Made by a program: the position numbers and the translations under genes
Source: Actinopolymorpha cephalotaxi
GTDB taxonomy: Bacteria; Actinomycetota; Actinomycetes; Propionibacteriales; Actinopolymorphaceae
Direction of reading: 5' to 3'
Assembly: GCF_013408535.1 (NCBI RefSeq)
Contig: NZ_JACBZA010000001.1
Location: forward strand, 5,726,850 to 5,790,849
DNA length: 64,000 nucleotides
In this document: one piece after another, positions 58,175 through 61,665 of the stretch
Layout: every line of letters starts with the position of its first letter
Position numbering within the stretch: the stretch's first letter is position 1
Notes under the pieces: generated by a model
Database searches by the model: none
What the model saw: the letters and a program-made list of their open reading frames with translations, nothing else
What the model was told of the DNA's origin: nothing

Positions 58175-58445
58175 GCGTCCCCTCGTTCTGCGCCGCGACC
58201 GGGGTGCCGTGGCGCCCCGCACTCTACTGGTGCGTACGTCACCGGCCCGCGCACTCGCCGCCGGGGCTCACCGGGTGTTCACCCACCCCGCGTGGACGAC
58301 TACGAGCGGTCACCCCACGGTCCTCGACCTCGCTCCGCGATGAGCTCTCCGGACGTGCGGCTCCAACGTGCTAGCCAGCAACAAGTATGGGTCGAACACC
58401 TTGTGGACAATGCGATCTCTGTCGGTGGCGCCAGATACGATTCGA
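58175..58445. other. Region between the PyrH-like gene and the IS, with the original HNH upstream sequence
   Basis: No gene. The right end (about 58380-58453) is what lay in front of the HNH gene before the IS entered. TACGAT at 58436-58441 ends six bases before the original ATG context, so the original promoter could have produced a leaderless HNH transcript. I find no clear -35 at 17 nt. Confidence 0.45.
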
Positions 58446-58453
58446 TCATGTCT
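58446..58453. repeat. Target-site duplication (left) of the ISL3-like element
   Basis: TCATGTCT, identical to 59912-59919. Eight bp is the usual ISL3-family duplication length. Confidence 0.9.
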
Positions 58454-58547
58454 CCCTCTCCTCGGCTTGGTGTGGGTTCGTAACCAGGGCCGGGAGGGGG
58501 TTGGTGTGGCTGGGTTGGGGTGTGTGGCGCGGGGCGGGGCATGAGAA

Positions 58548-58619
58548 GACGCGCACGTGGTTGCCCTTAGGTTCTGGGTGTCGAATCCTTAACCGTCTGG
58601 AGCAACGCACGTGCGCGTC
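58548..58619 (+). promoter_or_regulatory. Hairpin that buries the transposase start codon
   Basis: GACGCGCACGTG-GTTGC (58548-58564) pairs with GCAAC-G-CACGTGCGCGTC (58602-58619): 12 bp, one unpaired base, 5 bp, loop 37 nt. The start GTG (58611-58613) lies inside the right arm and the GGAG at 58599-58602 at its edge. A transcript entering from outside would fold over the start. A transcript starting inside the IS after the left arm would not. This is a known way for IS elements to limit transposition after chance transcription. Confidence 0.6.
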
Positions 58620-59903
58620 ACCACGGTATTCAACCGCATTCTGGGTTTGTCCGGGGCATCGGTGTGCTCGGTGGACTTCACCACCGACGGCCTCGTTCTT
58701 GGCCTTCGCCGCCGGCGTGGCCGCCGCTACCGGTGTGAGTGCGGGTTCTCCACCCGGGCCCGCTATGACATATCCCGCCGCCGCTGGCGCCACCTGGACT
58801 TCGGGGCCACCAAGGTGTGGCTGGCCGCCGACATCGCCCGGATCGCCTGCCCGGCGTGTGGAATCCGCACCGAGACCGTGCCCTGGGCGCGGCGCAACGC
58901 CCGGCACACCCGCGACTTCCAGGACGTGATCGGCTGGCTGGCCCAGCGCATGGACAAGACGAGCGTGGCCCGGCTGCTGCGGTGCTCGTGGGAGGCGGTG
59001 GACCGGGCGGTGAGAATGCTGGTGGCCGACCATCTGCCCACCGACCGGCTGGACGGGCTGTATCGGATCGGGGTGGACGAGATCTCCTACAAACGCGGCC
59101 ACCACTACCTGACCATCGTCTGCGACCACGACACCGGCCGGGTGGTCTGGGTGACCAAGGACCGCACCCGCAAGGCGTTCGAGGGCTTCTTCACCGCCCT
59201 GGGCCCTGACCGCAGCAAACAGCTGACCGCGATCACCATGGACGGCTCCCCGATCTACATGCCCGTCGCCGCACAGAAGGCGCCACAGGCCGCGGTGTGC
59301 CTGGACCCCTTCCACGTCATCAAGTGGGCCAACGAAGCCCTCGACAGAGCCCGCCAGGCCAACCCCGCCGTCCCACCACTGCCAGCCGCCCCGGCCAACC
59401 CGGCCAGCCCGGCCGCCCCGGCCAGCCCGGCCAAGCAGCACACCGTCGCACAGGTCAACGCCCCGGCCAGGGCGTGGCGACGGCTGAAGACAGCGCTGCG
59501 CTCAGGCGCTGAAAACCTCACCGACGACCGCCGCGCCCTCATCAACGCCCTGCGCCGCCACAACTACCAGCTCTTCCGCGCCTGGACCCTCAAAGAACAA
59601 CTACGAGACCTCTACCGCATCCCACCCGAACAGGCCCGCCGCTACCTTCGAAGGTGGATCACCCGCGCGTTCCGATCCACCATCCCCGCGATGCGCCAAC
59701 TGGCCACCCGCCTGAAGAAGTACTTCCAACAAACCATCGCAGCCGTCGAACTCGGCCTGTCCAACTCACGAGCAGAAGGCATCAACAGCAAAATCCGCGT
59801 CATCCAACGCCGCGGCTACGGACACCCAGGACCAGACTCCCTCACCGCCATGATCTACCTCTGCCTCGGCGGAATCACCCTCAACCTCCCCACACAAACC
59901 TGA
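58611..59903 (+). CDS. ISL3-family transposase
   Basis: 430 residues. N-terminal zinc-ribbon-like part (CECGFSTRARYDIS...IACPACGIRTETVPWARR), then the DDE domain: first Asp in RIGVDEISYKRGHHYLTIVCD, second Asp in VCLDPFHVIKWANEALDRAR, Glu in SNSRAEGINSKIRVIQRRGYG. Between the second Asp and the helical region lies a Pro/Ala-rich insert (VPPLPAAPANPASPAAPA) that is unusual in these enzymes. GTG start with GGAG eight nt before. The 3' third is much poorer in G than the 5' part. Confidence 0.95.
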   Translation: MRVTTVFNRILGLSGASVCSVDFTTDGLVLGLRRRRGRRYRCECGFSTRARYDISRRRWRHLDFGATKVWLAADIARIACPACGIRTETVPWARRNARHTRDFQDVIGWLAQRMDKTSVARLLRCSWEAVDRAVRMLVADHLPTDRLDGLYRIGVDEISYKRGHHYLTIVCDHDTGRVVWVTKDRTRKAFEGFFTALGPDRSKQLTAITMDGSPIYMPVAAQKAPQAAVCLDPFHVIKWANEALDRARQANPAVPPLPAAPANPASPAAPASPAKQHTVAQVNAPARAWRRLKTALRSGAENLTDDRRALINALRRHNYQLFRAWTLKEQLRDLYRIPPEQARRYLRRWITRAFRSTIPAMRQLATRLKKYFQQTIAAVELGLSNSRAEGINSKIRVIQRRGYGHPGPDSLTAMIYLCLGGITLNLPTQT

Positions 59904-59911
59904 GGAGAGGG

Positions 59912-59919
59912 TCATGTCT
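59912..59919. repeat. Target-site duplication (right) containing the HNH start codon
   Basis: TCATGTCT. Bases 3-5 are the ATG of the HNH gene, so the duplication rebuilds the start codon. GAGGAGAGGG of the IS end immediately precedes it and is well spaced for a Shine-Dalgarno sequence. Confidence 0.9.
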
Positions 59920-61665
59920 TCGAGCGAGTGGGGTGCCTGGACCGGTGGTGATGCCGTCGGCCGGATCCTGGCTGCGCTCGACCGGGTCGACGCTCCGCTG
60001 GACGAGGCGTGGGTGGCCCCGAAGGGTGGCCTGAAGCCCGAGGACATCGGGGCGGTGATCGCTGCGGCGCGGGCGAAGAAGGCCCGCCTGGAGGCCCTGG
60101 AGCTGGACCTGGTGGCTCTGGCGGAGGCCTGTGACATCGGCAGGCTGACCGGCTCCCCCAACGCCACCGTCTACCTGCGCACGGCGCAGCGGCTCGCGCA
60201 GCGGGAGGCGTCCGCGGTCGTGGGGCTGGCCCGTGACCTGGGCAAGGTGGCGCGGCTGACGTTGGAGGCGATGGCCGCGGGGGCGGTGTCGGCCCAGCAG
60301 GCGAAGGTGATCGCCGAGGCGATCAAGAAGCTCCCCGAATATGTCGGGGCCGATGAGCGGCACCGGGCGGAGGAGTTCCTGATCGAGAAGGCCGCCTTCG
60401 CCAACCCCGACGAACTCCGCGGAATGGGCGAGTCGCTGCTGGAACGCATCGCCCCCGAAGAGGCCGAACGGCTGGAGGGGGAAGAACTGGCGAAGAAGGA
60501 CCGCAAGGCCGAACAGAAACGGTCCCTTCGCTACCTGCCCAACGGCATCCCGCAGTCGGAGACGGTGCGCATCACTCTGCCGTCGTGGGAGATGGAACTG
60601 TTCCGCAAGATCATCGAACCGTTGGCGGTGCCGGTGAAAGGTGCCGAGCCCGACACCCGCCCGATCGACCAGCGACGAGGAGACGCGTTCGCCGAACTCA
60701 TCCCCCGGCTCGCTGGTGCCGCCCCGACCAGCGGCGGCAGACCACCCCAGGTCACCGTCACCATCCCGATCGACACCCTCCTGACCGGCGTGGGGGCCGG
60801 GTTCATCGACAACACCGCCACCCCTGTACGCCCCCGGCCCTGCACCTGTCCCTGCACCGACCCCAAGTACGGCACCACCAAGGACACCGGCAACACCCGG
60901 AACGCCAAGAACGCCAGACAGGCCCGTACGGACGGGGAACCGACACCGGAGGAAGCAGCAGGCCAGGAACGAGCCCGGGAAACCCAGCCAGGTATGGGGA
61001 AAAGGCCACCATCGGGTACCGGCTCACCCACCGACGGGATACCACCACCGCGAACACCGGATCAACCGCACCACCCACAACCGAACACCGACCCCGAACC
61101 AGAACCCCGTACCGCAACGGGTTCGGGAACCGAACCCGATCCGCATACCGGGCAGGTTCCGGGGCGTGACGCCGAACCCGACCAGGGTGCGGTGGGGCTG
61201 AAGGACGCCATCGACCCGCACGACGGGTGCCCCAAGTGCGGAGGCGGCGGATCAGCCCGCTACCTCGGCACCGACGGCAAACCCATCTCCGCCGCCACCG
61301 TCCGCCGGCTGGCGTGCGAGGCCGACCTCATCCCCGTCGTCCTCGCAGGAGACGGGCAGGTGCTCGACCTCGGCCGCTCCGACCGGTTCTTCAGGGAACA
61401 CCAGCGGCGTGCGCTGGCCATCCGCGACGGGAGCCACTGCCACTTCCCCGGCTGCCAGATCCCCGAACCGCGCTGCATCACCCATCACATGACCGCCTGG
61501 GACCACGGCGGACCGACCGACCTGAACAACGGCGTGCTGTTGTGCCGCTTCCACCACGTCACCGTCCACCACAAAGGCTGGCAAGTCCGCATGGGCGCAC
61601 ACGGCCACCCCGAATACGTACCCCCGGAATGGGTGGACCCGCAACAGCGCGTTCTCCGCCCATGA
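59914..61665 (+). CDS. DUF222/HNH endonuclease-domain protein (13E12-repeat type)
   Basis: 583 residues. DUF222 region from about residue 20 to 290; a long low-complexity linker (about 310-430) rich in Pro, Thr, Glu and Arg; C-terminal HNH nuclease motif CHFPGCQIPEPRCITHHMTAWDHGGPTDLNNGVLLCRFHHVTVHH with both metal-binding CxxxxC/His elements. This is the actinobacterial 13E12/REP family, often present in many copies per genome. The start is now supplied by an IS insertion: the ATG is in the target duplication and the ribosome binding site in the IS end, 10 nt after the transposase stop. Function unknown. Confidence 0.9.
   Translation: MSSSEWGAWTGGDAVGRILAALDRVDAPLDEAWVAPKGGLKPEDIGAVIAAARAKKARLEALELDLVALAEACDIGRLTGSPNATVYLRTAQRLAQREASAVVGLARDLGKVARLTLEAMAAGAVSAQQAKVIAEAIKKLPEYVGADERHRAEEFLIEKAAFANPDELRGMGESLLERIAPEEAERLEGEELAKKDRKAEQKRSLRYLPNGIPQSETVRITLPSWEMELFRKIIEPLAVPVKGAEPDTRPIDQRRGDAFAELIPRLAGAAPTSGGRPPQVTVTIPIDTLLTGVGAGFIDNTATPVRPRPCTCPCTDPKYGTTKDTGNTRNAKNARQARTDGEPTPEEAAGQERARETQPGMGKRPPSGTGSPTDGIPPPRTPDQPHHPQPNTDPEPEPRTATGSGTEPDPHTGQVPGRDAEPDQGAVGLKDAIDPHDGCPKCGGGGSARYLGTDGKPISAATVRRLACEADLIPVVLAGDGQVLDLGRSDRFFREHQRRALAIRDGSHCHFPGCQIPEPRCITHHMTAWDHGGPTDLNNGVLLCRFHHVTVHHKGWQVRMGAHGHPEYVPPEWVDPQQRVLRP

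Follow-up and report, generated by a model that had tools for sequence, protein, structure and literature searches.

An ISL3-family insertion sequence lineage with LexA-operator-like target sites, found at DUF222 start codons in Actinopolymorpha

Results

The locus

The window, meaning the whole 64,000-nucleotide stretch of Actinopolymorpha cephalotaxi DNA analyzed here, contains an ISL3-family insertion sequence (IS) of 1458 bp, flanked on both sides by an 8-bp target-site duplication (TSD), TCATGTCT. Each copy of the duplication (58446-58453 and 59912-59919) holds the ATG of a DUF222/HNH gene. The features are as follows.

58420-58441, + strand: DUF222 promoter of the PafBC (RecA-NDp) type, with TGTCGGTG (58420-58427), N8 and TACGAT (58436-58441)
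58442-58453, + strand: left part of the split SOS box, made of half-site TCGA (58442-58445) and left TSD TCATGTCT (58446-58453), with the original start codon at 58448-58450
58448-58483, + strand: 11-codon frame remaining behind the old promoter, as read from the sequence, with its ATG in the left TSD and its stop within the IS
58454-59911, + strand: ISL3-family insertion sequence, 1458 bp
58454-58476, + strand: left terminal inverted repeat, whose first 10 nt read outward are GAGGAGAGGG
58611-59903, + strand: ISL3 transposase, 430 aa, GTG start
59889-59911, + strand: right terminal inverted repeat, which gives AGGAG (59903-59907) 6 nt 5′ of the ATG
59912-59923, + strand: right TSD TCATGTCT (59912-59919) and right SOS half-site TCGA (59920-59923), with the new start codon at 59914-59916
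59914-61665, + strand: DUF222/HNH (13E12-type) gene, 583 aa, intact reading frame

The transposase matches PF01610 (1.8e-56) and NF033550 (ISL3; 266 bits against a cut-off of 180). The terminal repeats are imperfect, being 87% complementary over 23 nt, with the first 10 nt perfect. The transposase stops 10 nt 5′ of the ATG at 59914, and the right IS end, GAGGAGAGGG, lies 2 nt from that ATG with its AGGAG 6 nt away, as the junction reads TGAGGAGAGGG-TC-ATG. The gene downstream has a DUF222 domain (PF02720, 6.5e-28), while its putative C-terminal HNH domain (PF01844, residues 514-553) scores 20.2 bits, just under the cut-off of 21.4. The old DUF222 promoter now runs into the 11-codon frame and then the IS. 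The sequence-only reading that preceded this analysis had described the duplication with its ATG, the 1458-bp ISL3-like element, the 10-nt gap and the AGGAG correctly in every detail checked. A Pro/Ala-rich repeat in the transposase, PANPASPAAPASPA (59375-59440), accounts for a length of 430 aa in two of the genome's copies against 421 aa in the other two.

Copies within Actinopolymorpha

The source genome carries four full copies of the IS, the one in the window and three others, plus one remnant; a congener carries two full copies and Actinopolymorpha rutila one. In all seven full copies from these three genomes, the IS splits the start codon (ATG or GTG) of a DUF222-family gene. Three of the genes (L003, L038 and L041) are below Pfam thresholds or lack a Pfam scan, and were assigned to the family by paralogy; they are 50-78% identical to paralogs, among which L026, L029 and L030 match PF02720. 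Because the three other copies in the genome and the three in two congeners also split DUF222-family start codons, chance is excluded as the reason for the placement in the window. Thus the regular association of IS and HNH/DUF222 genes that had been guessed from the window holds, and none of the seven full copies from these genomes lies at an unrelated site away from a start codon.

Most of the Actinopolymorpha insertions look independent, because neighbor genes differ among the examined sites and the TSDs are of several types. For example, an amino-acid-kinase-family gene adjoins the window copy, and a GntR-like regulator, identified by sequence inspection, adjoins the A. rutila copy. That copies at different sites are nearly identical implies that the IS has moved recently. 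Reading frames 3′ of the insertions are mostly intact. At the A. rutila copy, the DUF222 frame 3′ of the IS stops after 364 aa, compared with 583 aa in the window, and may be broken. The duplications at L003 (1501-1508 and 2940-2947) differ by one base, TCATGTGT and TCATGCGT, and this copy may be older or altered after insertion.

Target sites and the LexA operator

Empty sites read TCGA-TCATGTCT-TCGA, TCGA-ATGCATGT-TCGA, TCGC-TCATGTGT-TCGA and TCGA-ACTCATGC-ACGA, among others. The pattern TCGA-N8-TCGA is that of the actinobacterial LexA operator, or SOS box, whose consensus is TCGAAC-N4-GTTCGA in M. tuberculosis (PMC4181829) and tCGAAC-N4-GNNCGa by ChIP-seq in Streptomyces (PMC9380542). In the source genome, its own lexA (PF01726 and PF00717) has one perfect box and two one-mismatch boxes upstream, and a perfect box is also found at an ImuA/Y-polymerase-like gene (PF00817).

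The window's empty site matches 10 of the 12 box positions. Among the insertion sites of the clade to which this IS belongs (10 genomes or replicons), 21 of 22 match at least 9 positions (range 9-12), a score attained by 0.09% of background positions. Four of these sites (L102, L103, L105 and L106) came to light once the hypothesis had been set, and score 11, 12, 12 and 10. The exception, L055, scores 6 in the strict register, apparently from a 1-nt change in one TSD; L052 was scored using its right-hand duplication, as the left one has a 1-nt difference. The inner 8 bp of the operator are exactly the stretch spanned by the 8-bp stagger. Each IS-target junction in Actinopolymorpha retains 7-8 of the 12 positions and the full box is lost, so that LexA binding and re-insertion at a filled site would both be expected to fail.

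By pattern searches, 997 places in the source genome lie within two mismatches of the box, and nonetheless all four full copies are at DUF222 starts. The box sequence alone therefore does not account for site choice, and occupancy or selection probably also acts. Dispensability of the multicopy family or actual LexA occupancy may be what adds to it.

Relatives in other actinobacteria

Relatives with about 46-60% transposase identity occur in Saccharopolyspora spinosa, Dactylosporangium roseum (seven copies), Actinoplanes, a Rhodococcus opacus plasmid and other actinobacteria. They too have terminal inverted repeats and an 8-bp duplication, a few with a one-base difference, and the duplications are ACNNNNGT between TCGA-like half-sites.

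The genes at these sites vary. At L106, the TSD contains the ATG of a Y-family polymerase gene (Pol IV type, dinB) in another actinobacterial genus, and L050 and L105 are box-targeted insertions at DUF222 genes outside Actinopolymorpha. An nrdH-like redoxin gene lies downstream of the perfect box at L079, and L102 is beside a DUF6319 gene. The decayed copy of the source genome (L005) sits at the box position of a gene whose paralog (83% over 496 bp), a non-DUF222 gene, has a perfect box. The start codon, on which the sequence-only reading had seen the IS land, is ruled out as the target, as most sites outside the genus lack one; what the IS targets is the LexA operator, and in the DUF222 family this operator overlaps the start codon.

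Some D. roseum sites are box-like with no recognizable SOS gene. L052 lies within another transposase frame, and the box-like site L076 adjoins a TnpB-like frame (weak Cas12f1-like TNB match), suggesting that the IS uses box-like sequences in mobile DNA too. The neighbor of L048 looks DUF222-like by eye, for which Pfam gave no confirmation, and the D. roseum transposase had no relative among phage records. Separately, a gene family with the sequence VGQQRRYGxQxVDGYEVPTG... (L005 1490-1873, L092 1501-1516) lies under a perfect SOS box, and one member has the decayed IS copy at its box position.

Controls and transposase phylogeny

Seventeen sites of more distant ISL3 elements (L057-L063, L080, L082, L085, L086, L104, L107, L110 and L114-L116) match 0-5 of the 12 box positions and are mostly AT-rich. 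A preference for palindromes as such or for AT-rich DNA is ruled out by these control sites. The box users make up a single clade, with support of 100/99, in a tree of 34 transposases; its nearest sisters use other targets, and target use changes once in all 200 bootstrap trees. Two Actinoplanes aureus entries inside the clade are without resolved ends, one of which (L047) has an intact right half-site, ACTGATGTTCGA. We read these data as an ISL3 lineage that probably recognizes a LexA-operator-like sequence and cuts its middle.

Promoters of the DUF222 genes

The source genome has about 24 DUF222 genes by Pfam (L007-L030), most with a LexA box over the ATG. When the IS is excised in silico, the window reads TGTCGGTG-N8-TACGAT-N6-ATG, and 18 DUF222 genes of the genome share TGTCGGTG-N8-TANNNT-N6/7-ATG, one with a single change, starting GGTCGGTG. 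The consensus of PafBC-dependent (RecA-NDp) promoters, tTGTCRgtg-8nt-TannnT (PMC5656591), fits the excised window and the 18 paralogs, with a predicted transcript start at the ATG. The DUF222 genes look leaderless and under both DNA-damage pathways, LexA and PafBC; the suggestion that the window gene had been leaderless before insertion is borne out at the sequence level. Mycobacterial genes with both motifs are known (PMC8223512), and the genes that damage induces in a RecA-dependent way in M. tuberculosis include five HNH endonucleases (PMC8151990). Because the operator overlaps the start codon in DUF222 genes, the IS lands on the start codon. At least two further places in the source genome (G000:C1:7437 and 594073, TCGCTCATGTGTTCGA) seem to be additional members of the family.

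Ribosome-binding site and orientation

Both IS ends read GAGGAGAGGG outward, and in all seven Actinopolymorpha copies AGGAG lies 6-8 nt from the ATG or GTG in either orientation. The orientation relative to the DUF222 gene is the same in four copies and opposite in three, and coupling of the HNH gene to the transposase, as proposed from the window, is not general. AGGAG-type ends also occur in ISL3 relatives inserting at AT-rich sites, whereas D. roseum ends begin with GCCAAT and have no AGGAG. Because such ends are common to box-indifferent relatives and missing in D. roseum, the best reading of the ribosome-binding site is that it came with the ancestral terminal repeat as a by-product, and its provision as an adaptation is rejected. 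An IS-supplied ribosome-binding site before an intact start codon, proposed earlier, thus stands as a feature of the junctions and falls as anything more than an ancestral by-product.

Discussion

We consider it highly probable that an ISL3 subclade selects LexA-operator-like palindromes and cuts them on the inner 8 bp, and that DUF222 starts are hit via the overlapping box. The transposase, presumably reading the DNA directly, would select the palindrome TCGA-ACNNNNGT-TCGA. An 8-bp staggered cut exactly on the inner 8 bp would separate the TCGA half-sites and duplicate the core. The multicopy DUF222/HNH genes of Actinopolymorpha would have PafBC-type promoters and a LexA box over a leaderless start, and a hit on the box would land on the ATG. 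The duplication would restore the ATG, and either IS end would happen to supply AGGAG at a usable spacing. LexA control would presumably be lost at filled sites, and expression may change with it.

Alternatively, operator-bound LexA could recruit the transposase, which would then be guided by protein, as TnsD guides Tn7, instead of reading the DNA. Despite the 997 box-like sequences, only apparent true operators (DUF222 starts and L005) are occupied in Actinopolymorpha, and Pol IV and DUF222 operators are targeted in another genus, as recruitment would predict. However, a bound dimer is expected to cover the inner 8 bp, where the cut falls with base precision, and no SOS gene is evident at several of the box-like D. 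roseum sites. We regard recruitment as unlikely.

It is improbable that the IS is adapted to start codons, supplying a ribosome-binding site and coupling the HNH gene to its transposase, as first proposed from the window. The AGGAG spacing in seven of seven Actinopolymorpha copies and the mostly intact downstream frames fit such an adaptation, but in other genera the insertions mostly occupy SOS boxes that lack a start codon, the orientation is mixed (four same, three opposite), and AGGAG-type ends go with AT-rich targets in ISL3 relatives and are absent in D. roseum. That the conserved 5′ end of the DUF222 family is the target, rather than the LexA box, is very improbable and was rejected: all seven full Actinopolymorpha copies, L050 and L105 are at DUF222 genes, but the 5′ sequences of these genes differ outside the box, and the Pol IV gene (L106), the redoxin gene (L079), the side of the DUF6319 gene (L102) and other sites have only the box in common, with the non-DUF222 sites L079, L106 and L005 contradicting it directly. 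Near-random insertion with survival only in dispensable multicopy genes is hardly credible, since survival, even in genes as numerous (about 24 by Pfam) and probably dispensable as DUF222, can neither set the same palindrome register in 21 of 22 sites nor confine the pattern to one clade; it is refuted as the sole cause, and selection may act on which boxes keep insertions.

A further idea, rather doubtful as yet, is that the IS lineage is SOS-gated. LexA would shield boxes in healthy cells and damage would clear them, gating the supply of targets. Insertion would put the transposase behind a damage-induced promoter and free the host gene from LexA, making transposition itself SOS-gated.

The element resembles the ISL3 family in its transposase (PF01610, PF13542, NF033550), length of about 1.4 kb, 8-bp TSD and GGCTCTCCTgA-like terminal repeats, but the sampled relatives outside the clade target AT-rich DNA, and the box clade targets LexA-box palindromes. 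TnGBS, ISLre2 and ISKra4 (Mutator-like), which insert upstream of sigma-A promoters (PMC3942029), likewise target regulatory DNA with a specificity that follows transposase lineage; they differ in transposase family and in targeting a promoter at a fixed distance, whereas here a repressor operator is cut through its center. REP-targeting IS elements (PMC1525189) also use repeated genomic palindromes, but REPs are extragenic repeats, whereas the palindrome in our case is an operator and often lies at a start codon. The mycobacterial 13E12 HNH genes in the LexA regulon (PMC4181829, PMC8151990) are a DUF222/HNH-type family under an SOS box and induced by DNA damage; in Actinopolymorpha, by contrast, the box lies over a leaderless ATG and serves as the target of the IS. 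No published description of an IS using SOS boxes was found in the open-access literature, which is weak evidence of novelty; the elements targeting sigma-A promoters and REPs came closest.

It is unusual for a one-gene transposon to select its targets at the level of an operator. The specificity can be traced to a single transposase clade, whose close relatives do not share it; this makes the protein determinant directly testable, and the element may offer a sequence-specific insertion tool for actinobacteria. For the hosts, operator targeting predicts that SOS-controlled genes would be released naturally from LexA, including the Pol IV gene at L106 and many HNH-nuclease-like genes.
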